Shown here in pieces: positions 30,075 through 52,603 of a stretch of 64,000 nt of DNA. Numbering within the stretch: position 1 is the stretch's first letter; each line of letters starts with the position of its first letter. The translations under genes and the position numbers were made by a program. A model generated the notes under the pieces. The model was given only the letters and a program-made list of their open reading frames with translations. It was not told the origin of the DNA and did no database searches. The stretch comes from Chitinophaga vietnamensis (GTDB lineage Bacteria > Bacteroidota > Bacteroidia > Chitinophagales > Chitinophagaceae), in contig NZ_CABHMS010000003.1 of assembly GCF_902167635.1 (NCBI RefSeq), positions 186,001 through 250,000 on the forward strand, read 5' to 3'.

Positions 30075-30108
30075 GCCCCGTAGGGGCGAAAGCCCGGTAG
30101 GCCCGGAT
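30073..30108. repeat. possible REP-like palindromic element
   Basis: GCCCCGTAGGGGC forms a five-base-pair hairpin, directly followed by GAAAGCCCGGTAGGCCCGG, a second GC-rich near-palindrome. It lies in the 82-base gap between two genes of the acyl cluster. Only one copy was noticed here, so its repetitive nature is unproven. Confidence 0.3.
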
Positions 30109-30156
30109 GCCGCGACAGATGCACAACCCTATTTTCAAACGTATATTCTTTTGCCT

Positions 30157-31599: not shown

Positions 31600-31650
31600 C
31601 GCTGATGCGCACATAAAATTGATCAAGTTAACCATTAAAGCACGCTAACC

Positions 31651-32646: not shown

Positions 32647-32672
32647 TTACAAACCATCCAGCATGAATAACT

Positions 32673-33701: not shown

Positions 33702-34425
33702 GATAATAGGAGCCGTTCACGTAGGATGCAGCAGGGCTGCTTAACCACAATACCAGCTCTGCTACTTCCGCCGCTTTTCCGAAGCGGCCCAGCGGATGCC
33801 GTGGCAGGAGGAAGTCGAGTTGTTCCTTGGTGAAATTGTTATCTACCATGGGCGTTTCAATGATGGCTGGACCTACAGCATTGATACGGATGCCATTTGC
33901 GCCATACTCCAGTGCCGCCGTTTTGGTAAGGCCGATAATCGCATGTTTGCTGGCGGCATAAGCGCTGATCCCGGGAAAAGTGATCTGTCCCGCAACAGAA
34001 GACATATTCACAATCACTCCTTGTCCTTGTGGCAGCATGGCTTTCAGCTGGTATTGCATACAGTAGAACGTACCATTCAGGTTCACATTGATGATATGCT
34101 GCCACAGGTCATGGTCAAAGTCTGCAAGGGGCACGGTGGCATGAAAGATGCCTGCATTATTACAAGCGATATCCAAACCAGAGAATGTGTCGATGGTGCG
34201 GCTCACCAGCATAGCGCATTCTTCTGCCTTGCCAACATCTGCTTTTATAAAAACAGCCGTGCCGCCTTTGTCGTTGATTTCCTGCGCTACTTCTTTTCCA
34301 CGGATTTCATTGGTTCCGTTTACCACTACTTTCGCGCCTTCGCGTGCGTATGCGATTGCAATGCTTCTTCCTATGCCGGAAGTGGCGCCTGTTACCAGGG
34401 CAACCTTGTTTTGTAATTGTTCCAT
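33673..34425 (-). CDS. short-chain dehydrogenase/reductase
   Basis: The 250-residue protein has the SDR marks: TGATSGIG (cofactor loop, residues 13-20), NNAG near 90, the catalytic serine in IVNMSSVAG, and YAASK (Y155-K159 area). It is classical and probably NAD(P)(H)-dependent. The proline-containing tail 'GSYYPIDGGYLSH' also fits. It faces the KAS III gene and overlaps its end, so it may not belong to that operon. Its closest match in this window is the SDR at 42443. Confidence 0.92.
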   Translation of the reverse strand: MEQLQNKVALVTGATSGIGRSIAIAYAREGAKVVVNGTNEIRGKEVAQEINDKGGTAVFIKADVGKAEECAMLVSRTIDTFSGLDIACNNAGIFHATVPLADFDHDLWQHIINVNLNGTFYCMQYQLKAMLPQGQGVIVNMSSVAGQITFPGISAYAASKHAIIGLTKTAALEYGANGIRINAVGPAIIETPMVDNNFTKEQLDFLLPRHPLGRFGKAAEVAELVLWLSSPAASYVNGSYYPIDGGYLSH

Positions 34426-37008: not shown

Positions 37009-38187
37009 ATGAAGAGCAACGAAACAACTGTTCCGTATAGCCTGCGGAATATGATTATATACTTCCTGAAATTAGGCGCCTGGGGATTTGGCGGGCCAGT
37101 GGCCCTCGCAGGCTATATGCATCGTGACCTGGTTGAAAATAAACGTTGGATTAGTGAAGAAGACTACCGGGAGGGGATGGCATTGGCCCAGTTGGCACCG
37201 GGACCGCTGGCTGCACAACTGGGTATCTATATGGGGTATGTGCATTACCGTCTGTTGGGCGCAACACTGACCGGACTGGCATTTGTGCTTCCCTCATTCT
37301 GTATGGTGCTGGGTATTGGATTTATTTACACCCGCTGGCAGGGTATTGCCTGGATACAAGCTGTTTTTTATGGCGTGGGCGCTGCCGTTATCGGGATCAT
37401 CGCCATGACTGCGTACAAGCTCACGCGGAAGTCATTAGGAAATGATAAGATGCTGACTGTTATCTATGTTGTGGCTGGTATCTATACTGTTTGGCAAGAA
37501 AGCGAAAACATCTGGTTATTCCTCGGCGCGGGAACCCTTTACTGGCTAAGCAAAGCGCCGCCTGGCAGGTTTTCTTTCTTACGTAATCGCGCTGTCCATC
37601 CAAAAATGTTGGTAGTTTCTGTATTGCTGAATAATAATATTACAGCCAATGCTTCGGGAAAGACACTGTGGCAAATATGCTGGTATTTCACTAAGGCAGG
37701 TGCATTTGTGTTTGGAAGCGGTCTCGCTATTGTTCCATTTTTGTACGGTGGTGTAGTAAAAGAATATGGCTGGTTAAACGAACAACAATTTGTAGATGCC
37801 GTAGCTGTTGCCATGATCACACCCGGTCCGGTTGTGATCACCGTAGGATTCATCGGGTATCTTACGGCAGGCCTCTATGGGGCTTGCATAGCAGCATTTG
37901 CCACCTTTTTTCCGTGCTACCTGTTCACAGTATTACCGGCGCCTTATTTCCGAAAATATGGTAAGCACCCTGGCATCAAGGCTTTTGTTGACGGTGTTAC
38001 CGCCGCAGCCATAGGAGCTATTTCTGGCGCGGTGATCGTGCTGGCCAAACGGACGTTAACAGATGTGTACACCATAGGAATAGCGGCGGTAAGTGTTCTC
38101 ATTCTATGGCGGTTTAAAAAAATTCCTGAACCGGTTATTATATTGGCAGCGGCAATTACAGGACTTTTATTGAAGGCAGTATTTTAG
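37009..38187 (+). CDS. chrA: ChrA chromate efflux transporter
   Basis: The 392-residue inner-membrane protein contains two CHR domains, each with the typical opening: 'FLKLGAWGFGGPVALAGYM' (about 14-32) and 'FTKAGAFVFGSGLAIVPFLYGGVV' (about 228-250), and 'LAQLAPGPLAAQLGIYMGY' and 'MITPGPVVITVGFIGYL'. ChrA exports chromate using the proton motive force. It completes a three-gene resistance cluster with the regulator and the DUF1259 lipoprotein. Confidence 0.95.
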   Translation: MKSNETTVPYSLRNMIIYFLKLGAWGFGGPVALAGYMHRDLVENKRWISEEDYREGMALAQLAPGPLAAQLGIYMGYVHYRLLGATLTGLAFVLPSFCMVLGIGFIYTRWQGIAWIQAVFYGVGAAVIGIIAMTAYKLTRKSLGNDKMLTVIYVVAGIYTVWQESENIWLFLGAGTLYWLSKAPPGRFSFLRNRAVHPKMLVVSVLLNNNITANASGKTLWQICWYFTKAGAFVFGSGLAIVPFLYGGVVKEYGWLNEQQFVDAVAVAMITPGPVVITVGFIGYLTAGLYGACIAAFATFFPCYLFTVLPAPYFRKYGKHPGIKAFVDGVTAAAIGAISGAVIVLAKRTLTDVYTIGIAAVSVLILWRFKKIPEPVIILAAAITGLLLKAVF

Positions 38188-38291
38188 CAGCAGGCGAAAA
38201 GTTGTAGATGAGTTTTATCTGGCGCTGGAAATAATTCGTAATTATCGAAATTGTAATCGTAATATCGCGATATAGGTATCACGAAAATACT

Positions 38292-38798
38292 ATGCAAATA
38301 ACAGCAATGTTGCCAGACTACTGGCCCGATGTGAAAAACATTTATGAAAGCGGATTGGCTACAGGTAATGCATCATTCCAAACCAGTGCTCCGTCCTGGA
38401 ACGAATGGGATCAGTCTCATCTCCAGCATAGCCGTCTGATTGCTCTGGATGGGCATGTAGTTGTCGGATGGGTGGCTCTCACGCCTGTATCTGGCAGATG
38501 CGTATACGCAGGTGTTGCAGAAGTAAGTATCTACATCAGTGATGCTTACCGTGGCCGCGGTGTAGGTAAGGCCTTGCTGAAAGCGCTTATCGCATCCAGT
38601 GAAACAAATAATATCTGGACGCTGCAAGCTGGTATTTTTCCTGAGAACGTGGCCAGCGTGAAACTCCATGAACAAGCTGGTTTCAGACAAGTAGGTTGCC
38701 GGGAAAAGATTGGCAAGATGCGTGACAGGTGGCGGGATACTTTGTTATTGGAGCGCCGAAGCAAAGTGGTTGGTGTTGATGGTGTTCGGCAATCGTAG
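38292..38798 (+). CDS. GNAT acetyltransferase, phosphinothricin/methionine sulfoximine type
   Basis: The 168-residue protein has the PAT-like layout: 'YESGLATGNASFQTSAPSWNEW' near the start, the acetyl-CoA loop 'VSIYISDAYRGRGVGKALLKALI' (about residues 78-100) and 'FPENVASVKLHEQAGFRQVG'. Such enzymes acetylate phosphinothricin or, more often in nature, methionine derivatives. The C-terminal ten residues are not conserved. It stands alone. Confidence 0.88.
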   Translation: MQITAMLPDYWPDVKNIYESGLATGNASFQTSAPSWNEWDQSHLQHSRLIALDGHVVVGWVALTPVSGRCVYAGVAEVSIYISDAYRGRGVGKALLKALIASSETNNIWTLQAGIFPENVASVKLHEQAGFRQVGCREKIGKMRDRWRDTLLLERRSKVVGVDGVRQS

Positions 38799-39359
38799 AA
38801 GAATAATTTAGAAATCCGTGCAGCTTTGTTTTTTATTTGATAGCACAATAGCACACAACGATTCCTTATAACAGATGTGCTCAGAATTCTGCGAAAATCG
38901 GATACTGGTATCTCTGCACCCATACTAAAATCTCTGAAGTCGTCATTGAAAATAGTACGCATTAATCATTCAATTTCCTGCTGGAAAAATAACTCCTGTC
39001 TAATTTGGGTTGATTGGACATGGAGAAACCATAAGCCTGGGAAATAAGGTGGTGTTCCTTCCTCTCTACGCAATTTCCCTATATCGACGCAAATCTAATG
39101 AAAAATCCTTATTCCACTGAGGCACTTTGGGCGGGTAAAAAGAATATTCTCGTTAGCGCTATTAAATAGAAATCTGTTTTTCATTTATCTCAATACCGTG
39201 TTAAGTAGCTTTTAACAATATTTGTCTCCATTATACTGATATACATTTTCAGGGCATGCGGTATATTTTTGTAATAACGCCACAGTATTAACCCGACAGC
39301 ACTTTGGACCCTATACTTATTCGCACCTGATCAACAACCTGTACCTATTTAATCATAAA
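38799..39359. other. 561-base gap with no gene recognised
   Basis: The sequence is AT-rich and no protein-like frame was found. It holds the promoter of the T9SS protein gene near its right end. The base composition from here to about 54.9 kb is visibly lower in GC than the first 25 kb. Confidence 0.4.
39264..39271 (+). promoter_or_regulatory. candidate -7 box of the T9SS-secreted protein gene
   Basis: TATTTTTG is an exact TAnnTTTG match, 88 bases before the ATG. Confidence 0.35.
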
Positions 39360-41297
39360 ATGCTAAAATCCATGAAGAAATTCTATTCAGTCGAAGGCAA
39401 TATGCTGCTTTCATTAGCAATTTTCATTTTTTGTCTTTCATTTCCCGGTAAATTGTCTGCTCAAGTCTACGCTAACAGTCAAACAAATGGTGTTACAGGG
39501 TTATGTCTGTTGTGTGGCGTAGCAAATCCGGATAATGCTGTTAACACCGACCTTACTGATTATTCTACTTTTAATATTACAGCTGGTCTGCTGGGGACAA
39601 CAGTACAGCAAACGCTGATCTTTCCCGCTATAAGTAGTACTGGCTGTGATTCGCTGGTCATAAGAGTAGGAAGCGACAACGCGGTATTGTCAGTCAATCT
39701 CTTTGGTGGCGTCACCGTACAAACTTTCAATGGCAGCACGGCCAACAATGATGCACATGTTGTAGATAGTGCATCATTGCGTCTTTTGCAGAATAACACA
39801 CAGGCGTTTGTTGTGTTGCATCCTACTCAGTCATTCGACCGTGTGAAGATTACATTAAACAGCAGTTTGCTCGGGCTGTTGAGTGGGTTCCGGGTATATT
39901 ATGCTTATCATAATTCCGGCAAGCCATCCAATCCCGTTTTTGCCGTACCACAGGGCAATACCTGTGGTACACAGCTGTTGCCTATAGTCAATCACCGACA
40001 GGGAACTAATTATAATGTCCGACTGAAATACACAAATGTGTTATCACAAGTCCTTCTTGATACTTCTTTTTCCATCATTAATAATGATACCGTTCATGTT
40101 CCCGGCATAGTTTCTCCATTGAGTGTGCAGGTGAACGTTTATCTGCAGGCTGTCAATCCATTCACTGGCTGTGTTTCAGATACTGTGCTGATGGCATTTA
40201 TTGCCGGTGGCTCAGGGGGGCTGCCACAGGTAGACGCAGATAGCATCACTATCTGCAAAGGCAACAGTGCAACACTACATGCATTTATTCCTGGCAATAC
40301 CTTGCCAACGATGAGATGGTATAGCGCTCCATCTGGTGGAAATTTGCTATACTCAGGTAATTACTTTACCGTTTCGCCAGATTCTACTACTACCTATTAT
40401 GTTACCGCGCTGCTTGTATGCGAATATCCGGGCCGTAGACCTGTTAATGTAAAAGTTACTAAATTGCCAGACCCTGTTTACCAGGTCCCGCAAGGCTTTG
40501 TATGTGGTAATGCTTATCTGCCGGTACAAAACCACGTTAATGGCATAAACTATTACGTAAGGATCAAGTATGTCCCTAATGTAGGGTTGCCATCCTCCGA
40601 TACGTCTTTTACAGTAATTAATAAGGATACTATTATAGTTCCTGGGAAATCTCTTTTTGCCGTCACAACCACTGAGGTGTATGTTCAGGCATTTGATCCG
40701 CTGTCTGGCTGCAGATCAGATTCTGTGCATCAGACGCTTACACTTGGCCCTACAGGCCCTGTCCCTAATGTAGACGCAGATAGTTTGAATATTTGTGATA
40801 CGGATAGCGTTACTTTGCATGCTTATACTCCCGGGGCTGACTTCCCTCAGATTCGCTGGTATGATGCTCCAACGGGAGGGAACCTGTTACATGTCGGTAA
40901 CTATTATACCGTCAAACCTGCCACAACGATGACTTACTACGTGACTTCGGCTATCAGCTGCGAAAATCCGGTTCGCAGGTCTGTTATTGTAATTGTTCGT
41001 CATTGTCTGAATACAAGTACATCACCCCACATAGCAGCCAGTAAGACGCCAGCCCCGGCTGTTACTACATTGGCATTCTATCCTAATCCAACGCATGGGG
41101 AAGTCAGGTTCACAGCTGACAAAGACCTTACAGGTAGTATTCTTTCCATAAAAGATGTAAGCGGCAGAGAAGTACAACGTGAACAATTAAAGTCGAACGG
41201 ATTCAGGATAATCAATCAGACATTGAAAGGCATCTATATTGTGGAAGTAGTAACTAAAGAAAGGCAAGTGTACATTGGTAAGATAGTGCTGCAATAA
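39360..41297 (+). CDS. T9SS-secreted repeat protein with Ig-like domains and type A sorting signal
   Basis: The 645-residue protein has a signal peptide ending near 'PGKLSAQ', an N-terminal beta domain, and two tandem units of about 180 residues. Each unit has 'VPQG..CG....P..NH..G.NY.VR.KY' and then an Ig-like part 'VDADS..IC....TLHA..PG' and 'RWY.AP.GGNLL..GNY.TV.P'. The last 75 residues are a type A T9SS sorting domain (FYPNPTHGEVRF, then 'GIYIVEVVTKERQVYIGKIVLQ'). It would be exported and attached to the outer surface. An ATG four codons later is also possible. Confidence 0.88.
   Translation: MLKSMKKFYSVEGNMLLSLAIFIFCLSFPGKLSAQVYANSQTNGVTGLCLLCGVANPDNAVNTDLTDYSTFNITAGLLGTTVQQTLIFPAISSTGCDSLVIRVGSDNAVLSVNLFGGVTVQTFNGSTANNDAHVVDSASLRLLQNNTQAFVVLHPTQSFDRVKITLNSSLLGLLSGFRVYYAYHNSGKPSNPVFAVPQGNTCGTQLLPIVNHRQGTNYNVRLKYTNVLSQVLLDTSFSIINNDTVHVPGIVSPLSVQVNVYLQAVNPFTGCVSDTVLMAFIAGGSGGLPQVDADSITICKGNSATLHAFIPGNTLPTMRWYSAPSGGNLLYSGNYFTVSPDSTTTYYVTALLVCEYPGRRPVNVKVTKLPDPVYQVPQGFVCGNAYLPVQNHVNGINYYVRIKYVPNVGLPSSDTSFTVINKDTIIVPGKSLFAVTTTEVYVQAFDPLSGCRSDSVHQTLTLGPTGPVPNVDADSLNICDTDSVTLHAYTPGADFPQIRWYDAPTGGNLLHVGNYYTVKPATTMTYYVTSAISCENPVRRSVIVIVRHCLNTSTSPHIAASKTPAPAVTTLAFYPNPTHGEVRFTADKDLTGSILSIKDVSGREVQREQLKSNGFRIINQTLKGIYIVEVVTKERQVYIGKIVLQ
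39921..41007 (+). repeat. two ~540-base tandem repeat units within the T9SS protein gene
   Basis: Two units start near 39921 and 40461 and code for related segments of about 180 residues that share many conserved positions. The DNA has diverged, so this is an old duplication. Confidence 0.65.
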
Positions 41298-41348
41298 ATT
41301 AATAAGAGTGCCGATCTTAAGTGTAATAGCCTCAGATGAATATTGGTT

Positions 41349-41384
41349 GAAGAAAGCCGTCTCAAAACAAGAGACGGCTTCTTC
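41349..41384 (+). terminator. intrinsic terminator after the T9SS protein gene
   Basis: GAAGAAAGCCGTCTC (41349-41363) pairs with GAGACGGCTTCTTC (41371-41384) with one bulged base. It lies 51 bases after the stop. Confidence 0.75.
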
Positions 41385-41629
41385 AGTCAATCATTCCTGG
41401 AAATTCATGCGCACAAATTTTTCGGAGACAAATAAGGTATCATCAAAGTGCGACTGTTTATTTATTAATAACAATCGAAAATTTAATTACTGAAAAAAAA
41501 TTGCAGGATCAATTATTATGTTTGTAATATTAATTCTTTCGCTGTATCCCCCGGAAGAATGCGCTATGCCTGGCTATTGCTATCCCGCTTCCATCAGATA
41601 ACTACATTAGTCGTTAAAATAAATTTCCC
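41385..41629. other. promoter region of the polyketide cluster
   Basis: AT-rich, no gene seen. TATGTTTG at 41517-41524 is an exact TAnnTTTG box, 106 bases before the first start codon of the BudA-like gene. The only nearby TTG (41501-41503) is too close to be an ideal -33 box. Confidence 0.35.
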
Positions 41630-42394
41630 ATGGTGGAGAAAATGGCGACAGGTTTGTCCTTAAGAGATTTCATGTATCAGTATTCCTTTATGGATGCGCT
41701 GTTGGCTGGCGTGTATGATGGAAACTTATTTTTACGTGAACTTAAAAACTGGGGGGACTTCGGCATAGGCACTTTGAACGGTTTGGAAGGAGAGCTGATT
41801 ATTTATGAAGGAAAAGTGTTTAAGACTCAGGAAAATGGCGCTATTAAAGATTTTGCCGAAAATGATCTGACACCTTTTGCTATCGTGAAATATTTCAACA
41901 GGAGTGACTCGTTTTTTGTTTCTATTGACTCCATGGACTATCACACCTTGAAAACGGAGATTGATAAGCGGGTAATAAAAAATAAAATGTACGCGGTCTG
42001 TCTCCGGGGAACTTTTTCCATGATCCATGCAAGGTCAGTAACCCTCGCCCGGCGGCCTTATCTGGAAATGGCAGCGCATATCAGCAATGGAGGGCAAAAA
42101 GAATATTGGTATACGAACATTGAAGCAATTTGTGTTGGATTTCTCCTGCCCCAGCATATCGGATCGATCAATGTTCCCGGATACCATCTTCATTTTATTT
42201 CTGAAGATCTACAAGTAGGAGGTCATGTTTTTGATTTCAGAGCCGATAAACTGGAAGTATCTTTGGACTCCGTTAAAGGATATATCATAGAGTTGAATAC
42301 TCATCCTGATTTTTATCGGACTGATTTTTCGAAAGACCGGAAATCAGACATGACTGAAGTAGAAGCACGATCAAAGAAAATCAGAAATGAATGA
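41630..42394 (+). CDS. acetolactate decarboxylase-like protein (BudA/AlsD family)
   Basis: The 254-residue protein has the family marks: 'WGDFGIGTLNGLEGELI', 'CLRGTFSMIHARSV' and the zinc-site motif GYHLHFISED with GGHVFDF. The three zinc histidines fall at H186, H188 and H199. True members convert alpha-acetolactate to acetoin. Here it opens a cluster with an SDR and a small polyketide synthase, not with acetolactate synthase, so it may act on a beta-keto acid made by that synthase. A second ATG lies four codons in. Confidence 0.88.
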   Translation: MVEKMATGLSLRDFMYQYSFMDALLAGVYDGNLFLRELKNWGDFGIGTLNGLEGELIIYEGKVFKTQENGAIKDFAENDLTPFAIVKYFNRSDSFFVSIDSMDYHTLKTEIDKRVIKNKMYAVCLRGTFSMIHARSVTLARRPYLEMAAHISNGGQKEYWYTNIEAICVGFLLPQHIGSINVPGYHLHFISEDLQVGGHVFDFRADKLEVSLDSVKGYIIELNTHPDFYRTDFSKDRKSDMTEVEARSKKIRNE

Positions 42395-42442
42395 TGTCTG
42401 TTTGTCTTTGAGGAGTAATTTTTAACCCTTAATATTTATTTT

Positions 42443-43195
42443 ATGTCAGAATTACAAGGCAAAGTAGCTATCGTTACAGGTGGTGGTACCGGAATAGGAA
42501 AGGCAATTGCCGAGATCTATGCCAGCAATGGTGCAAAAGTAGTGATTGGCGGTCGCGATGAAAAACGTAATCAATCAGTGGTAGATGCAATCATGAACAA
42601 GGGAGGTGAAGCTATATTTATCCAAACGGATGTAAGCAAGCGACAGGATTGCGAAAGGCTGGTAGAAAAAACCCTGGAAAAATATCAAAGGTTGGATATT
42701 GCCTGCAATAATGCTGCAAAGATCAGCCCGTTGACATCCGTTGGAGAATATGATATCGATGAATGGGAGAATGTTATTGATACAAACCTGAATGGTGTGT
42801 TCTATGGTATGCGTTATCAGATACCTGCTATGCTGGCTTCAGGCGGAGGAGTGATTGTCAATATCGGGTCTATAGCATCACAGGTGGCTGTTCGGGGCCT
42901 GGCGGCTTATGTTGCCGCCAAACATGGATTACTGGGCCTGACAAGGGTTGCCGCTGTGGAATACGCCGATAAGGGGATCCGGGTTAATGTTATCGGCCCT
43001 GCCTATATACGTACTCCATTGCTCAATGATATTCTTTCCGATGAAGGGATTTCTGATCTGGCGGACATCCATCCCATTGGCCGTATCGGTGTACCGGAGG
43101 AAGTTGCTGAACTGGCACTTTGGCTAAGTTCAGACAAGTCTTCTTTCGTTACCGGAAGTTATTATACGATTGATGGTGCATACACAGCCCAATAA
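42443..43195 (+). CDS. short-chain dehydrogenase/reductase of the polyketide cluster
   Basis: The 250-residue protein has TGGGTGIG (cofactor loop), 'IACNNAAKISP' where most SDRs have NNAG, the serine in VNIGSIAS and 'YVAAKHG' with the catalytic tyrosine and lysine. A purine-rich GAGGAG stretch lies upstream of the start. It follows the BudA-like gene by 48 bases and precedes the PKS. The synthase has no ketoreductase domain, so this enzyme could reduce its product. Confidence 0.9.
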   Translation: MSELQGKVAIVTGGGTGIGKAIAEIYASNGAKVVIGGRDEKRNQSVVDAIMNKGGEAIFIQTDVSKRQDCERLVEKTLEKYQRLDIACNNAAKISPLTSVGEYDIDEWENVIDTNLNGVFYGMRYQIPAMLASGGGVIVNIGSIASQVAVRGLAAYVAAKHGLLGLTRVAAVEYADKGIRVNVIGPAYIRTPLLNDILSDEGISDLADIHPIGRIGVPEEVAELALWLSSDKSSFVTGSYYTIDGAYTAQ

Positions 43196-43389
43196 ATATA
43201 TCAACCATTTTATCCCTGAACAATACCCCTGCGTTTTATAACCAATGTCTCCCGTAGGTTTAACCCGTTCCACAGCACGAATAAATTCTTCCAAAAATGC
43301 CCTACCTGAAATTATATGTTCTGACTGGGCTTTCGATTGCAGGAAATGGTCGCCTAAGAAAATTGTTTGTTTAATTAAAATCGAAAATA

Positions 43390-46300
43390 ATGAATGATAT
43401 GAGTGAAGGCAATGTGTTTGCGCCAGCAGCGCAAAAAGAACCTGTTGCCGTTATAGGCATGTCGTGCCGGTTTCCTGGTGCTGCTAATTTAGAGGAGTTT
43501 TGGGATATATTGTATTCCGGGAAGGATACAGTGGATGCGATTCCACCAGATCGATGGAAGATGGAGGACTATTTTGATCCAGACCCCTATGCTGACCAAA
43601 AAACCAATCAACAGCATGCTTCCATGCTGAAAGGCATTCATGACTTTGATCCCTTATTTTTTGATATTTCTCCGGCCGAAGCTATAGAGATCAGCCCTTC
43701 TCAAAAGTTGATGCTTGAATTGGCCTGGGAAGCAATTGAGCATACCTGTATTCCATTGGATCATTTCAGGCAAGGAAAAACGGGCGTGTATATTGGAAGT
43801 ACCTGGAGCGACTTTGAGCATTTCAGGCGAGAAAGGAATTCTTCTATAACAGCTCATTCTGCATTGGGGCAATCCCCCAATATCATTGCCGGCAGGATAT
43901 CCTATAAACTAGGATTGACAGGCCCCAGCCTTGTTGTAGATACCGGGTGTTCTGCTTCATTGGTGGCCCTGCATCTCGCTTGTCAGGCTTTGCTGGATGG
44001 AAGTATTGATGTGGCGATGGTGGGAGGCGTTAATCATCTGCTTGATCCGGTCCAGTATGTTTTTCTTTCGAAATTCGGTGGCCTTTCTTCCAGTGGCAGA
44101 TGCAACGCTTTTGATAGCAAGGCCGATGGTTTTGTCAGAGGAGAAGGTGGGGGGATCATCATTCTGAAAAAACTATCTAACGCAGTGAAGGATGAAAACA
44201 GGGTTCTGGCCCTAATCCGAAAAACCGGCGTTAACAACAATGGGTTTAATGTCAGCCTTCCAGCTACCAGCCAGGAAGGTCAGTTGAGGTTATTGGAAGA
44301 TACTTATAGGGACAGTGGGGTTGATCCAAGTCTGGTGCACTATGTGGAAGCACATGGCACAGGAACCGCTGTAGGAGATCCTGTTGAAGCGACTGCACTG
44401 GGGATGTTTTTTCGCCGGGGTAGAGAACAGCCCCTGAGCATAGGGTCAGTAAAAACGAATATCGGGCACCTCGAAGGGGCTGCAGGTATAGCGGGCTTCA
44501 TTAAAGTGGTTTTGTCCATGAAGCACAGGGTACTTCCTTCAAATCTTCATTACCATCAGCCCAATCCAGGAATATTGTTCGATGAACTTATGCTTACTGT
44601 ACAACAAAAAAACAGCCCATGGCCGGTATTGGATGGAGAAACTTTTAAAGCAGGGATTAACTCATTTGGTTGGGGAGGAACTAATGCTCATGCGATTCTG
44701 GAAGAGTATCCCGCACAAACGAATGTACAAAGAGAGCCGCCTGCACTAAATTATTATTGCTTACCCTTGTCTGCCAGGGCTTTGGGCGCCCTGAACGAAT
44801 ACGTTGAAAAATATATCAGGACCATAACAACCTGCTCAGACGATAGTTTCGTGGACATTTGCATAGCTACTGCGCTTGTCAAACCATCTTTTGAATACAG
44901 GGCATTATTTGCGGGAAGAGACAGAAATGAAGTGTTGAACAATTTGAAGGCATTTAAAGAGAATACAGGTACAGCCCCTCTTAATGACTGTATCTCTTCA
45001 GGTGGCAGGACCGTTATGGTATTTCCCGGTCAGGGATCACAATGGAAAGGAATGGGGCAGGAACTGTATCGACTGGAACCGGTGTTCCGGAAAGTGATCG
45101 ATACCTGTGACGAGGTTTTTAAGATTTATTCCGATTGGTCATTGAAAGAGTTATTGCTATCTGACAGTGAACGATCAAATAAAAGTCTGGAAGAAATTAA
45201 CGTCATTCAGCCTGTTCTGTTTGCGGTAGAATTGGCGCTGGCACAATGGTGGCTATCAATAGGAATACGGCCTGATGCAGTTGTCGGCCATAGTATGGGA
45301 GAGGTAGCTGCGGCCTTCATTGCAGGGGCCCTTGATCTGGAAGATGCGGTAAGGATAATCTTCATGCGAAGTCAATTGATGAGAAAGGTTAGTGGAAAAG
45401 GAGGAGGCATGTTGGTGACCGAATTATCCTCTACTGACGCTGCTGGCTTCATCCTAAAATATCCGGAACTATCTATCGCTGCCATCAACAGCCCAAGATC
45501 CACTGTACTGGCGGGTAACCAAAATTTACTTGGCCATGTCCAGTCAGAGCTGGAATCCAGTGGATTATTTGCCAGACCAGTAAAGGTGGATGTTGCTTCG
45601 CACAGCAAACATATGGATAGCCTGACAGAAGAATTATCTAATACCTTGCAGGGAATCATTCCTCATCCTCCTTCCATTCCATTTTACTCCACGGTGATGC
45701 CGGGTTTGGTTGAAAGTGCAGATGCGGCATATTGGGTGAAGAACTTGCGGCATACCGTTCAGTTTAGCCCCGCCATACAACAATTGATAAGCACAGGGCA
45801 TACTAATTTTATTGAAATAAGCCCCCATCCGATCCTCGTAAATGCGATCCGGGAATGTGCGGAAGCGGTTGATGGACGCGATATTCATTGTATCCCTTCG
45901 CTATTTCGGGAAAGCCCTGAACAAAGCTCGTTATATGCTAACCTGTGTCTGGCATATTCGTATGGCTGTCCAGTGGATTGGATAAAATATTACCGGACGA
46001 AAACAGCTCCGGCTATTGACCTTCCTTCTTATCCTTTTCAGAGAGAACATCTTGAACTGGAGGATAACTCGCAACTATCTAAATTATGGAGACCGGAAAA
46101 AGGTCATTCAGAACGCAAGGTAGTAATACCGTCAACTCCCCTGGCCGTCAACCATAAGGAGCAAGGCCAATCGCCGGCAAGGCTTCCACAAAGTCAGCCT
46201 GAAATGCAACAATTGCTGGCAGGAAAAGTTGCTTCTATAACCAGAGTGCCTTATTCCAGGATCAGGCTGAATATCACCTTAAAATCAATGGGGATCGATT

Positions 46301-47172
46301 CTTTGATGATGGTGCAATTACAAAGATCTATTGAAAAGGACCTCTGTATGCAAATCCCAAAAAATATCATCCAATCGCATTTGCGATTAGACAGAATAGC
46401 TTCAGCCTTATTCCAATTCATAGAAGGGAACCATGTAATTGATAGTAGTTCCTGGTATACCATCCCCATTCCCGTACCTTCTGCCAGCTACCGGATTTTC
46501 TGTTTCCATGATGCCGGAGGTTCTTCAAATTTGTTCTTTCCTCTCGCAGAATTTGTGGACAAGGATACAGAGCTGGTCTGTATTGACTTGCCCGGAAGAG
46601 CCAATAGCCCTCATAAAAAGATATATGAGCATATCAATGATCTTATCACAGATATGTTGCCTGTGATGGCGCCTTTATTTGATAAACCTTTTTTATTTAT
46701 TGGTCATAGCATGGGGGCGCTGGTGGCATTTGAACTCACCCGTGCCCTACGAAGGAATAACATGCCTCAACCTATAAAACTCATTACCTCTTCCATGCCA
46801 GCCGTAAGCAGGTATAGAATGCCGGATGCTTATACTGCCCTTGACGAAATGGAACTGGCAAAATTATTCCCCTACCTTGATAAATCAAGGATGTTGGACG
46901 ATGATTCCCGGCAGATGTTTTTAGAAGTACTCAGCAACGACCTGAGATTGATGAAGACTTATCAATACACGAACGATGATCCACTCGATATAGACATTAT
47001 TGCTATTTATGGATTGATGGATGATCGGGTAAATGAAGAAAATGCAGCACCCTGGTCTGAAGAAACGACAAAGAGTTTCCGCTTGGTGTCACGTCCCGGC
47101 GGGCACCAACTTACAGATGAGAACCTGGTATTTCTTGTTCCCCTGATCAATATTTCTTCGTATTCCCGGTAG
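43390..47172 (+). CDS. type I polyketide synthase, domains KS-AT-ACP-TE
   Basis: The 1,260-residue protein has one ketosynthase (about 16-440): C187 in VDTGCSASL, histidines in VEAHGTGTAVGDP and NIGHLEGAAG. The acyltransferase (about 535-870) has FPGQGSQWKGMG and S635 in GHSMGE; its specificity loop reads VASH (735-738), nearer to the methylmalonyl YASH than to the malonyl HAFH. An ACP with S971 in MGIDSLMM follows (about 930-1010), then a thioesterase (about 1020-1255) with S1107 in GHSMGA and the histidine in GGHQL. No KR, DH, ER or MT domain is present. One round would give an unreduced beta-keto acid. Confidence 0.93.
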   Translation: MNDMSEGNVFAPAAQKEPVAVIGMSCRFPGAANLEEFWDILYSGKDTVDAIPPDRWKMEDYFDPDPYADQKTNQQHASMLKGIHDFDPLFFDISPAEAIEISPSQKLMLELAWEAIEHTCIPLDHFRQGKTGVYIGSTWSDFEHFRRERNSSITAHSALGQSPNIIAGRISYKLGLTGPSLVVDTGCSASLVALHLACQALLDGSIDVAMVGGVNHLLDPVQYVFLSKFGGLSSSGRCNAFDSKADGFVRGEGGGIIILKKLSNAVKDENRVLALIRKTGVNNNGFNVSLPATSQEGQLRLLEDTYRDSGVDPSLVHYVEAHGTGTAVGDPVEATALGMFFRRGREQPLSIGSVKTNIGHLEGAAGIAGFIKVVLSMKHRVLPSNLHYHQPNPGILFDELMLTVQQKNSPWPVLDGETFKAGINSFGWGGTNAHAILEEYPAQTNVQREPPALNYYCLPLSARALGALNEYVEKYIRTITTCSDDSFVDICIATALVKPSFEYRALFAGRDRNEVLNNLKAFKENTGTAPLNDCISSGGRTVMVFPGQGSQWKGMGQELYRLEPVFRKVIDTCDEVFKIYSDWSLKELLLSDSERSNKSLEEINVIQPVLFAVELALAQWWLSIGIRPDAVVGHSMGEVAAAFIAGALDLEDAVRIIFMRSQLMRKVSGKGGGMLVTELSSTDAAGFILKYPELSIAAINSPRSTVLAGNQNLLGHVQSELESSGLFARPVKVDVASHSKHMDSLTEELSNTLQGIIPHPPSIPFYSTVMPGLVESADAAYWVKNLRHTVQFSPAIQQLISTGHTNFIEISPHPILVNAIRECAEAVDGRDIHCIPSLFRESPEQSSLYANLCLAYSYGCPVDWIKYYRTKTAPAIDLPSYPFQREHLELEDNSQLSKLWRPEKGHSERKVVIPSTPLAVNHKEQGQSPARLPQSQPEMQQLLAGKVASITRVPYSRIRLNITLKSMGIDSLMMVQLQRSIEKDLCMQIPKNIIQSHLRLDRIASALFQFIEGNHVIDSSSWYTIPIPVPSASYRIFCFHDAGGSSNLFFPLAEFVDKDTELVCIDLPGRANSPHKKIYEHINDLITDMLPVMAPLFDKPFLFIGHSMGALVAFELTRALRRNNMPQPIKLITSSMPAVSRYRMPDAYTALDEMELAKLFPYLDKSRMLDDDSRQMFLEVLSNDLRLMKTYQYTNDDPLDIDIIAIYGLMDDRVNEENAAPWSEETTKSFRLVSRPGGHQLTDENLVFLVPLINISSYSR

Positions 47173-47349
47173 TCGTATTTTACTAACTGCAAAGCTATTT
47201 CGTGGCGTAAGTGTAGTTTTACATGAAGAAGATGCATCTGTACATCTATCCTTGTTTAAGATCGATTAACAATGATAACCCTTAATCTGAGTGATCTTTT
47301 TTATGTTCCCTGAAAACATACCCCATAATCATCTGATAAAAATTATTTT

Positions 47350-47793
47350 ATGCAGGAGTTTATCAAAGAAAAAATTATCGGCGCCTGGCAGCTGCTGTCA
47401 TGGACATATAATAATGACAAAGGTGAAACGATTCATTACTTTGGAGAGAATGTTATGGGAATAATTATTTATGACCGAAGCGGTTATATGAATGCTCAGA
47501 TCATGAAGGCGTCACGTCCGCTTTTCAGTACTTCATCCCTTAACGCCGGAACCCCTGAGGAAACGTTTTCCGCATTCAGCGGCTATCTTGCTTATTATGG
47601 GAGGTATGTTGAAAATAAACCCGGAGAATTGGTGCATATTATCGAAGGTAGTCTCTTCCCTAATTGGATTGGTAATGGGCAAGTAAGGTATGTAAGCATT
47701 GAGGACGACCGGTTGACGATACGCACTCCCCCCATTTTGTCAAAAGACGGGGAGGTTGTCTTCCACCTTGCGTGGAGAAGGGTTTCATGCTAG
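47350..47793 (+). CDS. lipocalin-like domain protein of the polyketide cluster
   Basis: The 147-residue protein follows the Lipocalin_5 pattern: 'IIGAWQLLSWTYNNDKGETIHYFGENVMGIIIYDRSGYMNAQIM' and the C-terminal strand 'LTIRTPPILSKDGEVVFHLAWRR'. Proteins of this kind are frequent next to polyketide genes and can act as small-molecule binding or shaping proteins. No signal peptide is visible. It lies 177 bases after the PKS and is followed by a terminator. Confidence 0.75.
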   Translation: MQEFIKEKIIGAWQLLSWTYNNDKGETIHYFGENVMGIIIYDRSGYMNAQIMKASRPLFSTSSLNAGTPEETFSAFSGYLAYYGRYVENKPGELVHIIEGSLFPNWIGNGQVRYVSIEDDRLTIRTPPILSKDGEVVFHLAWRRVSC

Positions 47794-47826
47794 GCTTGTC
47801 GTCTGTATATGTAATTTGGTCTATAA

Positions 47827-47862
47827 AATCCCAACAGCAGATTGTGTTGTTGGGATTTTTTT
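47827..47862 (+). terminator. intrinsic terminator closing the polyketide cluster
   Basis: AATCCCAACA (47827-47836) pairs with TGTTGGGATT (47848-47857), followed by seven T. It marks the end of the BudA-SDR-PKS-lipocalin transcript. Confidence 0.85.
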
Positions 47863-48138
47863 AAATACAAATTTAAAATTTCCTCCTGCCAAGTAATGGC
47901 AATGTCATTTTTTTAAATCATATTTTATCCTGCTTGTATATAGTAAGGAATGCAAACATATTTTTTGTTAAAATAAAATAGCCTATTCTTATTAATTAAA
48001 AAAATGAAAAATAATTAGGAACTGCGTAACTTGATATTCTCAATCAAATAACCATAACTATATTTTCATAACCCTGTTCAACTCCAGAGATAACTATATT
48101 TTCAGGCTTCCCACAGTTGTTACTTTCAAAAGTGTATT
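47863..48138. other. very AT-rich spacer before the glycosyltransferase gene
   Basis: No gene is seen. The sequence contains long A and T runs, and near 47962 a box close to TAnnTTTG with one base too many. It should hold the promoter of the glycosyltransferase gene. Confidence 0.3.
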
Positions 48139-49512
48139 ATGAATATTGTCCATGTGCACCTTCAAGGGTTCTACCATCCTTCCGGCGGTATTCGTGACGG
48201 CATTGATACAGGCGGGCAAACACGCGTGGTGCACGAACTGGCGCGCGCGCAGGCGCAGCAAGGACATACAGTCACCGTTGTAACACGGCTGATCAACGAG
48301 GCTGTTTCGGGATCATTAGAATCAATGTTGCAAAGGCAAACGTATCAACAAGGAACTGATGCTCCTTATTTTATCCGTCGTATTTCATTCGGTGACAGCC
48401 TGAAATTTATCCGCAAAGAGGATATGTACCCGCTGGCCTCTTTAATTGCCGATGCTATCTTCAACACATTATCACAGGAACTTGAGAAAGTGGATATTTT
48501 AATAAGCCACTATGCAGATGCCGGCTTGACAGCCGAGTACTTAAAATACCTTTTGTATCAACAAAACGGACGTATTATTCCACATATCCATGTTCCGCAC
48601 TCCATGGGATATGCCAAACTCAAAAGTATGCCCGCATATAGTGCAGATGAAGGAACATCAGCATACAATTTCAATGACCGGATTGCGGCGGAGTCCTATA
48701 TCTATCGTCATGCAGATCTGTTAGCACACTCATCTCAAACCCAGGCAGAACTGGGACAGCGGTATCCCTACTGTGCTGCTACTACTCCTGTGTTGGTGGT
48801 CTGTCCTGGCTATAATAAAAGTGTGTTTTATATGTCGCCGCAATCCAAAGAGCAACGCATACAACAATTGAAAGCATCAGGTTTCACAGGTCTGGGGGCA
48901 GATGATTTTATTATTTGCATGGCTGCGCGATTTGTTCCGGAAAAAGGTTTTTCCCGTCTCATTAGTGCATTACCTTATATTTTGAAAGAGAAACCCCATA
49001 CCAAGGTGTTGATAATTGGAGGGAGTTATACCGCAGCGGAAAGAGCGCTGTTAACCGCATTGCAAACCCAAAGCAGAATGAATAATAGCGCGCACATCAT
49101 CAGCTGGCATAAAGGATTGCCACAGGAGAAGCTGGCCGCTGTTATGCGGAACATTGATGTATTTGTTGCTGCCCGACGCCATGAACCATTCGGGATGGCA
49201 TCACTGGAGGCGCTGGCATGTGGTGCATATTGCATAGCTGATAAGACCAGCGGAATAGTGGAAATGCTGCCTGATGGTATGATTACCGCTTGCAATACTG
49301 ATAATCCCCAAGCATTGGCACGAGCCATTATAAACGTTCCGGCACTACGTAGTGAAAATGTTTTTGAACCTGCACTTGCCAATTATACCTGGGATGTTAT
49401 CTGCCAGAAATTTGATGCAGCAATAAGCACCATCAATCCCAGGCAGCCTTACCCGGTTTCCACCATAGATTATTTAGTAAATAACAGCCACACGATTCAA
49501 TACGGCCCATAA
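48139..49512 (+). CDS. GT4-family glycosyltransferase, sucrose-phosphate-synthase-like
   Basis: The 457-residue GT-B protein has 'GGIRDGIDTGGQTRVVHELARAQAQQGHTVTVVTR' near the N-terminus, as in sucrose-phosphate-synthase-like enzymes, 'MAARFVPEKGFSRLISALPYI' at the nucleotide-sugar domain and the retaining GT4 motif E349-x7-E357 in HEPFGMASLE. It uses an activated sugar such as UDP- or ADP-glucose, but the acceptor is unknown. Its place after the polyketide cluster invites the idea that it glycosylates the product, but a terminator separates them. Confidence 0.85.
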   Translation: MNIVHVHLQGFYHPSGGIRDGIDTGGQTRVVHELARAQAQQGHTVTVVTRLINEAVSGSLESMLQRQTYQQGTDAPYFIRRISFGDSLKFIRKEDMYPLASLIADAIFNTLSQELEKVDILISHYADAGLTAEYLKYLLYQQNGRIIPHIHVPHSMGYAKLKSMPAYSADEGTSAYNFNDRIAAESYIYRHADLLAHSSQTQAELGQRYPYCAATTPVLVVCPGYNKSVFYMSPQSKEQRIQQLKASGFTGLGADDFIICMAARFVPEKGFSRLISALPYILKEKPHTKVLIIGGSYTAAERALLTALQTQSRMNNSAHIISWHKGLPQEKLAAVMRNIDVFVAARRHEPFGMASLEALACGAYCIADKTSGIVEMLPDGMITACNTDNPQALARAIINVPALRSENVFEPALANYTWDVICQKFDAAISTINPRQPYPVSTIDYLVNNSHTIQYGP

Positions 49513-49550
49513 AATTTCTATGCTAACAAATATTTATAGCTATCACTGAC

Positions 49551-49820
49551 TTGGCAATTCATTGTGCCATGCTACCTTCAGGCTGTATGCTGATCCGCAG
49601 GGATTTAATATTACAGGAAGTGAAAAAAGAAAAGCTGAATAGCAGTGCTTTCCGGCTGGAAGGTATAGATGGCCTATATCTGATAAGAATAATTACCCGC
49701 GAACGGATAATATATCAAAGCCAAGATTATATTACAAAAGTGATAGAAGTGTTTGAAATCACGGAGCACATTCATTTCGAAAATGCGCTCCGTAATTCTA
49801 CTCTTAATGTTCCGTCCTAA
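49551..49820 (+). pseudogene. remnant of a T9SS type A sorting domain
   Basis: An 89-codon frame starting at TTG has no signal peptide and ends abruptly. Its middle (VKKEKLNSSAFRLEGIDGLY, then LIRIITRERIIYQSQ) aligns by eye with the C-terminal sorting domain of the T9SS protein at 39360 (VQREQLKSNGFRIINQTLKG, then IYIVEVVTKERQVYIGK). It seems to be the decayed tail of another secreted protein gene. A short reading from ATG 49569 is also possible. Confidence 0.5.
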
Positions 49821-49931
49821 AATAGCTATGCAAAAAAAGTTAAACGCATTAAACTAACCGCACTGCAAGATGATTTCAATATGCTGACTTATCTTTAATT
49901 TAACTGTTTCACGCCAAAATCCAATTCCACA

Positions 49932-50975
49932 ATGATTAAAACAAAGGCATATGCCGCACAAAGCGCGAACGTACCTTTAACACCATTTGAATTTGAACGA
50001 AGACCTGTTGGAGATCACGACATTCTGATTGAAATACTTTACTGTGGTGTATGTCATACAGATATTCATGCTGTGCGCAATGACTGGGGAGGCACCATGT
50101 ACCCTATTGTTCCCGGGCATGAAATAATAGGGCGCGTTATTCAGACAGGTAAGGCTGTAACCAGGTTTAAGATAAACGATATTTCCGGGGCCGGTTATTT
50201 GTACGACTCCTGCCGGCATTGTTATCAATGTGCCCACGACGCCGAACAGTATTGCGAAAACGGCATAACACCTATTATGGGCGGACAGGAAAGGGAAACC
50301 GGAGCGCCTTTATATGGTGGATATGCCTCCAAGCTGGTAATAGATGAACGCTATGCGGTAAAGGTACCTGCTGCACTTCCATTGGCTGCTGCTGCCCCTT
50401 TATTATGCGCCGGTATAACTACATATTCCCCCCTTAAATACATCAAGGCCGGGCCGGGGCATAAAATTGGTATCGCAGGTTTAGGAGGCCTCGGGCATAT
50501 GGCGGTAAAATTCGCCAAAGCACTGGGAGCAGAAGTAACAGTTTTAAGTACCTCAACCGCTAAAGAACAAGATGCGGAAAAATTAGGTGCGGACCATTTT
50601 GTGTGGTTGTCAGACCTGGAAGCAATTAAAACATTATATGGACATTTTGATTTTATTATTGATACAATATCAGCGCCGCATGACTATAACATTTATGTGA
50701 ACCTGCTTAAAGTAAATGGTTCTTTAATACTTGTAGGTTTGCCAGGTACCCCTTTGCAGTTGGATGTTTCGGGGCTTATCTTTAAAAGGCGAAGCATAAG
50801 CGGTTCTTTAATTGGCAGCATCCATGAAACCCAGGAAATGCTGGAATTTTGCGCAGAAAAAAATATTGTAGCTGATATAGAGATTATTCCTGTCAGCCGT
50901 ATCAATGAAGCCTACGAACGGATGATCAAAGGGGATATAAAATATAGATTTGTGATTGATATGGCGACCTTGTGA
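49932..50975 (+). CDS. zinc-dependent alcohol dehydrogenase, cinnamyl-alcohol-dehydrogenase type
   Basis: The 347-residue protein has catalytic zinc ligands C41 (GVCHTD), H63 with E64 (PGHE) and C159, structural zinc cysteines C94, C97, C100 and C108, and a nucleotide-binding loop GIAGLGGLGHMA. The pattern matches the NADP-dependent YahK/CAD group, which reduces aldehydes to alcohols. It may reduce an aldehyde or ketone from the nearby polyketide cluster, but a separate housekeeping role is as likely. It converges on the ABC transporter gene with a gap of 14 bases. Confidence 0.93.
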   Translation: MIKTKAYAAQSANVPLTPFEFERRPVGDHDILIEILYCGVCHTDIHAVRNDWGGTMYPIVPGHEIIGRVIQTGKAVTRFKINDISGAGYLYDSCRHCYQCAHDAEQYCENGITPIMGGQERETGAPLYGGYASKLVIDERYAVKVPAALPLAAAAPLLCAGITTYSPLKYIKAGPGHKIGIAGLGGLGHMAVKFAKALGAEVTVLSTSTAKEQDAEKLGADHFVWLSDLEAIKTLYGHFDFIIDTISAPHDYNIYVNLLKVNGSLILVGLPGTPLQLDVSGLIFKRRSISGSLIGSIHETQEMLEFCAEKNIVADIEIIPVSRINEAYERMIKGDIKYRFVIDMATL

Positions 50976-50989
50976 AGACTGTATACCGG

Positions 50990-52603
50990 TCATGCTACAA
51001 TGATGGTACGATTTTCTTTTAGCTGGTCTAAAAAAACGTCTATTTTCTCCCGTATTTTGTCATCAAAACTCTTCGGCAGGTCGTCGATCAGTATAATTTT
51101 TTTATCGCTCAATAATGCTCTTGCAACCAGTAGTTTTTTATACTGCGAACCGGATAAGTGGCTTGCATTTTCCCCGATTCCGGTATCCAGGTCAATGATA
51201 TCATTACTATTGTCATTTGAAAAATGAAGTGATCGTAATAATTCCACTGCTCTTTGCCGTGCACCGGCATCAGTTTTCAGAAAAAGACATTTTGAAATGG
51301 TGTTGCCATATAATGGAGCTTTATCGGAAATAAATGCAATATGATGCCGGAAAGATTTTTTTAATAAACCTTTGGCATCACTGCCATCAAATAGTATGGA
51401 TCCGCTATCGGGGGTGTAAATACCCAGTATTAATTTCAGAATAGTGCTTTTGTAATTGCCATGAAGTTGATTTATTGCTCCTGGCCCGCATTGAAAATTC
51501 AGGTTATTTAAAATGGTTTCCCTGTCGGAGTAGCTAAACGACACATCCCTGAATTCAATGATGCCTTTTACTGGTTGATATTCCATCTTATCTTCCCCAT
51601 ACTCTTCCAGTGGAAGATTAAGGATGGAATAAATTTTTAAAAAAGCTATGTTGCCTGCCTGCCAAATGCTACTCACTCCTAAAAATCGTTTGTATGTAGG
51701 AAACATTAAAATAACAAGGATGATGAATGGAATAAACATACGTGCCGGATCCGGGTTATTTTGCCCTGCGGTGTATGGCATATGGCCAATAAAAATCAGC
51801 AAAAGCGAAAAGAATAAAAATGCCGGTACGATGGCTTTGTTAAAGCTGTTCAGCAATAAAAACCGCCTGCTGGTATGCTCCAGTTTTTCCATTTTCCTTT
51901 TATAGCTTTTTATTACAGCATACTCCTGGTTGTAAGCCTTAACAGTAGTTAATGCCTGTAAAGCGCCAAGTACAAAATGCAAATTGGAAGAAAGCATATC
52001 CCTGCGTTGGGATTGTATATGGCGGAGTTTTCTGTTAATGCTATTCAAAAGCAGAAAGCCGGCTATCAGTGTTGCTATTGTTGTGAGCGTTGTTGTTGTA
52101 TTAATACTTAGTAAAAAAGCTAATGAAATCAACATAAATATGCAATCGGATATGAAACGAAAAATACCTTTAGAAACATACTTACGAATGCTGGCCATGT
52201 CGCCACTGTAGCGGAGCAGGTATTTGCCCACCGGTTTTTGTATAAAATCCTTTGTATCCATCCGCACCTGGTGACGAAACAATTTTTTTTGCAGCGATAG
52301 CGAGATTGTTAGCGCTATCATTTCAGAATAATAGGTTTCCAAGAAGTGTAAAATCAGCTTACATATAATTACAGCTCCAAAAACAGGAAAAAAAATAGTT
52401 GGATGATGCGGCAGTTCAATATGCAACTGATGTAATAACCGGCTCTTGTTTGAATGGTGCTGACTGAGCATCTCGTAGTATACCCCTATGCTAAGCGAAA
52501 GCAGTACAGTGATGCAACTGTTAATTACACCCAGTAGCACAATCGCAAAACATGCGATTACTCTTCGCTTAAAGTGGCTCTTGATGATATCCCAATGTTT
52601 CAT
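50990..52603 (-). CDS. ABC transporter with degenerate, truncated ATPase domain
   Basis: The 537-residue protein has a six-span exporter domain (about 15-320) and an ATPase domain (about 345-537). The Walker A region is altered to LHGNYKST: K385 and S386 are kept but the glycine before K is Y384. The signature is LSGSQ (483-487) and Walker B is IILIDD with D508 where glutamate is expected. The chain stops right at 'NRTIIVA', just before the H-loop histidine. ATP hydrolysis is doubtful. It lies 18 bases after the P-loop gene in one operon. Confidence 0.8.
   Translation of the reverse strand: MKHWDIIKSHFKRRVIACFAIVLLGVINSCITVLLSLSIGVYYEMLSQHHSNKSRLLHQLHIELPHHPTIFFPVFGAVIICKLILHFLETYYSEMIALTISLSLQKKLFRHQVRMDTKDFIQKPVGKYLLRYSGDMASIRKYVSKGIFRFISDCIFMLISLAFLLSINTTTTLTTIATLIAGFLLLNSINRKLRHIQSQRRDMLSSNLHFVLGALQALTTVKAYNQEYAVIKSYKRKMEKLEHTSRRFLLLNSFNKAIVPAFLFFSLLLIFIGHMPYTAGQNNPDPARMFIPFIILVILMFPTYKRFLGVSSIWQAGNIAFLKIYSILNLPLEEYGEDKMEYQPVKGIIEFRDVSFSYSDRETILNNLNFQCGPGAINQLHGNYKSTILKLILGIYTPDSGSILFDGSDAKGLLKKSFRHHIAFISDKAPLYGNTISKCLFLKTDAGARQRAVELLRSLHFSNDNSNDIIDLDTGIGENASHLSGSQYKKLLVARALLSDKKIILIDDLPKSFDDKIREKIDVFLDQLKENRTIIVA

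Follow-up and report, generated by a model that had tools for sequence, protein, structure and literature searches.

A single-module polyketide synthase and a Lipocalin_5 protein as candidate partners in Chitinophaga vietnamensis

The stretch analysed here, henceforth the window, comprises 64,000 nucleotides of the 6.3-Mb Chitinophaga vietnamensis genome (contig C3:186001-250000) and carries, on its plus strand, genes for an acetolactate decarboxylase (BudA), a short-chain dehydrogenase/reductase (SDR), a type I polyketide synthase (PKS) and a protein of the Lipocalin_5 family (Table 1). An earlier note had read the four as one cluster in which the PKS makes a beta-keto acid, BudA decarboxylates it, the SDR reduces a ketone and the lipocalin serves to carry or shape the product. 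Open reading frames (ORFs) and Pfam reproduce its gene calls, strand, coordinates and family assignments exactly. Its cluster reading survives in part: the single-module PKS and a PKS-lipocalin link hold up, and the casting of BudA and the SDR as pathway enzymes is not supported by comparison. The main finding is that comparative sequence evidence ties the lipocalin, rather than BudA or the SDR, to the PKS, a tie that we take to be real and that is most directly suggested by a congener in which the two form one protein.

Table 1. Genes and transcription signals of the four-gene block, in window coordinates
Feature	Coordinates	Strand	Basis
Terminator-like hairpin	41348..41385	+	Fold -22.5 kcal/mol; lies between the block and the upstream gene (39360-41297)
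BudA/AlsD-type acetolactate decarboxylase, 254 aa	41630..42394	+	PF03306, TIGR01252, PDB 4bt2, alignment
Classical SDR oxidoreductase, 250 aa	42443..43195	+	PF13561/PF00106
Type I PKS, KS-AT-ACP-TE, 1260 aa	43390..47172	+	Pfam, motif scan, alignment with relative
Lipocalin_5 protein, 147 aa	47350..47793	+	PF13924, fusion in congener, predicted barrel
Intrinsic terminator	47825..47862	+	15-pair stem (47825-47859), then T-run; fold -20.7 kcal/mol

A single-module synthase and a relative fused to a lipocalin

The PKS is, as proposed earlier, a single unreduced module with its own thioesterase: Pfam places ketoacyl-synt, Ketoacyl-synt_C, Acyl_transf_1, PP-binding and Thioesterase in that order within one protein, a ketosynthase-acyltransferase-acyl carrier protein-thioesterase (KS-AT-ACP-TE) layout in which the KS begins at residue 17 and the sole PP-binding stretch spans residues 942-1004. 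The same searches returned no ketoreductase (KR), dehydratase (DH) or enoylreductase (ER) match at E<=0.001 and no product-template or cyclase domain. All eight motif patterns are present (DTGCS, EAHGTGT, NIGH, GHSMGE, VASH, GIDSL, GHSMG and GGH), with meanings that we presume for such short motifs; VASH, in the AT, we take as a hint of a methyl-branched extender. The TE is an alpha/beta-hydrolase (PF00975) whose closest match among PDB structures is RifR, a type II thioesterase (8.5e-32). No nonribosomal peptide synthetase (NRPS) occurs among the ORFs of 38000-51000, and neither a partner module nor a carrier was recognised beside the PKS. The earlier proposal of a single condensation to a beta-keto acid is backed by the domain order, the intact motifs and the precedent of the CorA PKS, as far as the available part of that paper goes (PMC10979478).

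The lipocalin matches PF13924 at 1.1e-32 (113.4 bits against a gathering cut-off of 25), shows no signal peptide by eye and is predicted to fold as a lipocalin barrel (pLDDT 88.8); VIA-align likewise gave a common lipocalin barrel, from which no catalytic parallel emerged, and a profile built from seven relatives found no sequence-related solved structure (best E 0.56).

When 79 Chitinophaga genomes were searched with the PKS, scoring the best 8 candidates per genome, the sole other full-length relative was that of genome G295 (49% identity over residues 18-1253), and four further genomes matched at E<=1e-190 over KS-AT only. The G295 relative is a single protein of 1412 aa with the order KS-AT-ACP-TE-Lipocalin_5, whose C-terminal lipocalin domain has 61% identity with the free-standing lipocalin of the window; six of the eight motifs are literally conserved, and the KS cysteine and TE serine align with substitutions among neighbouring residues. 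Such a fusion is strong evidence of shared function, and it omits BudA: no relative was found at E<=1e-6 within the 43 kb read around the G295 PKS. Nor does the locus support the window SDR, as the SDR found there, 1.5 kb upstream of the PKS with one gene between, belongs to another subfamily and is 27% identical.

Among 394 family genomes, five others match at E<=1e-205, over KS-AT only and at 43-45% identity, and no lipocalin match was obtained at the five loci fetched. A scan of genome contigs with the PKS yielded three loci, two in Byssovorax and one in Streptomyces, at 39-42% identity over KS-AT or part of it, and by eye no lipocalin lies among their ORFs. Five family genomes (L131-L135) share, by eye, a set comprising a ligase, a luciferase-like monooxygenase, a PKS and an NRPS-like condensation part, where the PKS has an N-terminal carrier and a KS-AT 43-45% identical to that of the window.

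Lipocalin relatives and the putative PKS-lipocalin device

Lipocalin matches at E<=0.001 occur in 30 of the 79 genus genomes, the window's own included. In a tree of 41 rows the six genus lipocalins of at least 45% identity, again counting the window's, form one clade (100/99 support), and the five closest (45-61%) all accompany a condensing enzyme and a thioester hydrolase: two of the clade's six members are found with a KS-AT-ACP-TE PKS and four with an operon in which the lipocalin gene comes first, followed after 39-44 bp by an AMP-ligase and then by a beta-ketoacyl-ACP synthase III (KASIII) and a metallo-hydrolase. For one of these operons (G346), the best PDB match of the ligase is the anthranilate-CoA ligase PqsA (2.7e-79, with a benzoate-CoA ligase near at 1.5e-76), that of the KASIII is PqsD (3e-111, the next being a FabH type at 2.9e-60) and that of the metallo-hydrolase is PqsE, named in the PDB as 2-aminobenzoylacetyl-CoA thioesterase (1.4e-34); compared gene by gene, the remaining three sets share 47-72% identity with it. 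A PqsD-like KASIII at E<=1e-80 is confined to these four of the 79 genomes and is absent at that threshold from the window's own. The four operons may make compounds of the 2-aminobenzoylacetate type. In the stretches read around them (L079, L080, L081 and L082) no second KASIII of the PqsB/PqsC kind was recognised by eye.

Within +/-1.5 kb, 23 of the 24 other genus lipocalins have no KS-AT, ACP-TE or PqsA/D/E match, and the same holds for the lipocalins found at E<=1e-20 besides the window's own in 394 family genomes (one) and 395 phylum genomes (two), which are 33-36% identical. Lipocalin matches also occur in 95 plasmid records. On plasmid pBOCT1 of Brasilonema octagenarum (CP030122) an NRPS and a PKS of KS-AT-methyltransferase(MT)-ACP-TE architecture are followed 22 bp later by a Lipocalin_5 gene (34%) and then by a type II thioesterase (TEII); beyond the TEII this locus (L121) has a separate AT and genes for HlyD and an ABC exporter, and its Lipocalin_5 is annotated as hypothetical.

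In the reading that we favour with moderate confidence, the PKS and the lipocalin would constitute a small two-protein device for one condensation, TE release and lipocalin handling of the product. The KS would accept an acyl starter and the AT load a malonyl-type extender, a single Claisen condensation would give a beta-ketoacyl-ACP, and the RifR-like TE would release the beta-keto acid, an unstable product that the lipocalin barrel in the cytosol would then bind and shield, deliver, or help to cyclise or decarboxylate. BudA and the SDR would be either tailoring enzymes recruited at this locus, for CO2 loss and ketone reduction, or unrelated neighbours.

Several observations weigh against this proposal. 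No starter-loading gene was recognised beside the PKS, and in the window the PKS and the lipocalin have genes of their own, with 177 bp between them. The PKS-associated lipocalin of genome G355, 31% identical and not a member of the clade, is followed on the same strand by a TEII and a PKS, and that PKS is fully reducing (KS-AT-DH-ER-KR-ACP), so that the pairing is not confined to beta-keto acids and the link to them is weakened. The four PqsA/PqsD/PqsE-type cases are orthologous, as are the two PKS cases, and the clade therefore holds two independent contexts. Brasilonema is the one plasmid locus near a KS among the 15 read, a count that gives no rate since the loci were hand-chosen, partly by host, and its lipocalin was left out of the tree. 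The two pqs/hmq-like loci read outside the genus, in Photobacterium and Burkholderia, lack a lipocalin of this kind within 7 kb.

The PKS could, finally, be iterative. Single-module PKSs can work in this way, and an enzyme with neither partner module nor carrier recognised beside it seems to stand alone; it might join at least two malonyl units into a tri- or tetraketide, which would close to a pyrone or resorcinol, the lipocalin serving as a scaffold in the manner of a cyclase. Against this, the TE is nearest to RifR, of the hydrolytic editing type, neither a product-template nor a cyclase domain was found, and the parallel PqsD/PqsE pathway performs one condensation followed by hydrolysis; we consider iteration unlikely.

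A broader version of the two-protein proposal is that the Lipocalin_5 proteins of this lineage are general post-release factors, which would capture the free beta-keto acid from the thioesterase and steer its cyclisation or decarboxylation in type I PKS, NRPS/PKS and PqsA/PqsD/PqsE-type pathways alike, with one congener having fixed the lipocalin as a PKS domain and the window having drafted an acetolactate decarboxylase as a dedicated tailoring enzyme. We offer this extension tentatively and hold it to be rather doubtful.

The decarboxylase, the reductase and the limits of the cluster

BudA resembles a canonical acetolactate decarboxylase both in its family model and in its conserved residues: it matches AAL_decarboxy (PF03306) at 9.8e-63 and PDB 4bt2 at 2.1e-43, exceeds the curated TIGR01252 cut-off (198.1 against 180.65 bits) and retains in alignment the histidine and C-terminal glutamate pattern of the family, where we take the histidines to be zinc-ligand-like and presume the usual roles for both residues. 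Of 294 family genomes 16, the window's own among them, encode a homologue. By eye the window protein has no signal peptide, and 18 of the 19 other family loci start signal-like or lipoprotein-like, which makes the window BudA unusual and presumably cytosolic, with a substrate that is probably intracellular. The exception (L009) lacks a signal-like start and adjoins an apparent acetolactate synthase gene. At none of these 19 loci does a PKS match lie in the flanks (+/-1.5 kb or less); the closest homologue (G112, 50%) is lipoprotein-like and has no PKS match in the 36 kb around it, and a genome-contig scan with BudA gave 19 pattern matches, none of them confirmed. A second homologue in the same genome (C10:147941-148627, 29%) has a signal-like start, and most of the homologues in the family look like exported proteins. 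The gene at C5:498738 encodes an acetolactate synthase that scores above the TIGR00118 cut-off; matches to this model fall on contigs C5 and C6 only, and with the window on C3 no such gene is adjacent.

The SDR is recognised by Pfam (PF13561/PF00106; adh_short_C2 at 2.1e-62), and among the best 25 of 230 NCBIfam models only the broad SDR subfamily NF005559 is scored above cut-off (226.8 against 215); the meso-2,3-butanediol dehydrogenase model NF052558 gives 5.2e-58 but stays below its cut-off (196.6 against 270) and is outscored by several other SDR models. At E<=1e-60, 43 of the 79 genus genomes, own included, contain a relative, and none of the eight loci read by eye (+/-1.5 kb) lies beside a PKS. 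The window itself holds, at 28620-34425, genes for a 484-aa protein that no Pfam family matches, a protein resembling acyl-CoA dehydrogenases and a tandem pair of KASIII enzymes, after which comes, on the opposite strand, an SDR sharing 49% identity with that of the cluster; together these are possibly a second small pathway.

Cotranscription of the four genes is plausible from the layout. The strong terminator that had been said to end the block is there, a feature absent from the consensus-scan listing and revealed by folding. The motif TANNTTTG, which we take to be the Bacteroidota -7 element, occurs twice on the plus strand within 41200-48200, at 41517, 5' of the first gene, and at 42258, within the BudA ORF and 185 bp before the SDR; it is found in none of the three intergenic gaps, and neither copy is accompanied by a TTG at 17-23 bases. 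Sigma-70-like sites are about as frequent as chance predicts (29 observed, 28.4 expected). The gaps measure 48 bp (BudA-SDR), 194 bp (SDR-PKS) and 177 bp (PKS-lipocalin), and the latter two are long for a tight operon. A glycosyltransferase (48139-49512), weakly similar to sucrose-phosphate synthase and unmatched at E<=1e-60 in all 78 other genus genomes, and an aldehyde reductase (49932) were considered as members and set aside, both being past the terminator.

The four-gene pathway of the earlier note, which is compatible with a PKS-lipocalin device, draws on this shared strand, the close BudA-SDR spacing, the flanking hairpins and gaps free of TANNTTTG, on the probably intracellular substrate of BudA, and on the presence of an upstream SDR, albeit of another subfamily, near the G295 PKS. 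The same comparisons speak against it: BudA is missing from the G295 surroundings, the SDR there is distant in both sequence and position, and PKS matches are missing beside the other BudA genes. Acetolactate decarboxylases, further, use 2-hydroxy-3-oxo acids, and a plain beta-keto acid lacks the 2-hydroxyl. Such an acid is proposed to lose CO2 unaided, as far as the available part of the CorA paper extends (PMC10979478), and a decarboxylase need not be required. We regard BudA as the pathway decarboxylase and the SDR as its ketone reductase as unlikely.

These data also fit a second arrangement, equally compatible with the two-protein device, in which BudA and the SDR belong to a side branch for acetoin/2,3-butanediol and the PKS-lipocalin unit downstream is independent of it. 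The family-level score and conserved residues of BudA, an acetolactate synthase elsewhere in the genome to supply acetolactate, the sub-threshold match of the SDR to NF052558 and the wide distribution of SDR relatives in the genus are consistent with it; the lack of an adjacent synthase gene, the better scores of other SDR models and the placing of both genes in one hairpin-bounded block with the PKS argue the other way. This is a serious possibility, if short of probable, and of the two options, tailoring enzymes drafted into the pathway or an acetoin branch unrelated to it, we lean toward the second.

Relation to known systems

No described cluster with the four-gene set was found in the open-access literature, among the matches listed, in keeping with what the earlier note had stated. 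In the same literature, and again among the matches listed, apparently no gene cluster joining an acetolactate decarboxylase to a PKS has been described, and nothing relevant by title appeared on acetolactate decarboxylase promiscuity toward beta-keto acids. Open-access searches likewise gave nothing relevant by title for Lipocalin_5/PF13924 or for a lipocalin-PKS-thioesterase pairing in cyanobacteria, and no paper for Chitinophaga with PqsD or for lipocalin with 2-aminobenzoylacetate. The locus combines familiar parts in a novel arrangement. Beta-keto acids are unstable compounds, and what becomes of them once released is often ascribed to spontaneous chemistry; if the PKS-lipocalin proposal is true, a cytosolic lipocalin that is joined to, or encoded alongside, unrelated enzymes releasing such acids would be a new post-assembly element in a small, testable system and would give a function to part of Lipocalin_5. 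The four congeners point to a PqsA/PqsD/PqsE-like branch outside Proteobacteria.

The closest functional precedent is CorA of Corallococcus exiguus, whose excised KS-AT-ACP-TE portion turned Leu-Val-SNAC and malonyl-CoA into coralinone 1, in the authors' model through a beta-keto acid intermediate that loses CO2 spontaneously; as far as the available part of the paper shows, this portion, of the same layout as the window PKS, is functional alone and a precedent for condensation plus hydrolysis (PMC10979478). CorA as a whole is an NRPS/PKS (A-T-C-A-T-KS-AT-ACP-TE, according to the same part of the paper), whereas no NRPS was found adjoining the window PKS, and the paper nowhere uses the word lipocalin (PMC10979478). 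For lipocalin-like domains together with PKS clusters, the open-access literature yielded only penicillin-binding-protein-type (SurE-like) thioesterases, described in the available part of the source (PMC11735501) as a hydrolase domain of that type with a C-terminal lipocalin-like domain; the window TE is, in contrast, an alpha/beta-hydrolase.

With bud/als operons for acetoin and 2,3-butanediol the window shares an acetolactate decarboxylase adjoining an SDR, but it has no adjacent acetolactate synthase and contains a PKS and a lipocalin. The mycobacterial Pks13 performs one condensation to an alpha-branched beta-keto product with a KS-AT-ACP-TE core preceded by an extra N-terminal ACP; the window PKS has the core but no ACP before its KS, and scores 733.6 bits on the Pks13 model against a cut-off of 2100. 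PqsD makes and PqsE hydrolyses a beta-ketoacyl-CoA, and the PqsA-PqsD-PqsE route to 2-aminobenzoylacetate thus resembles the chemistry expected of KS-AT-ACP-TE, a single condensation followed by thioester hydrolysis, with a KASIII and a metallo-hydrolase replacing the type I PKS and TE; relatives of the three in one operon are found in the four congeners and not in the window. The Brasilonema pBOCT1 locus differs in its upstream NRPS, the methyltransferase domain of its PKS, its phylum and a lipocalin of 34% identity, and is alike in having a non-reducing PKS with a TE, a Lipocalin_5 gene directly after it and then a TEII.

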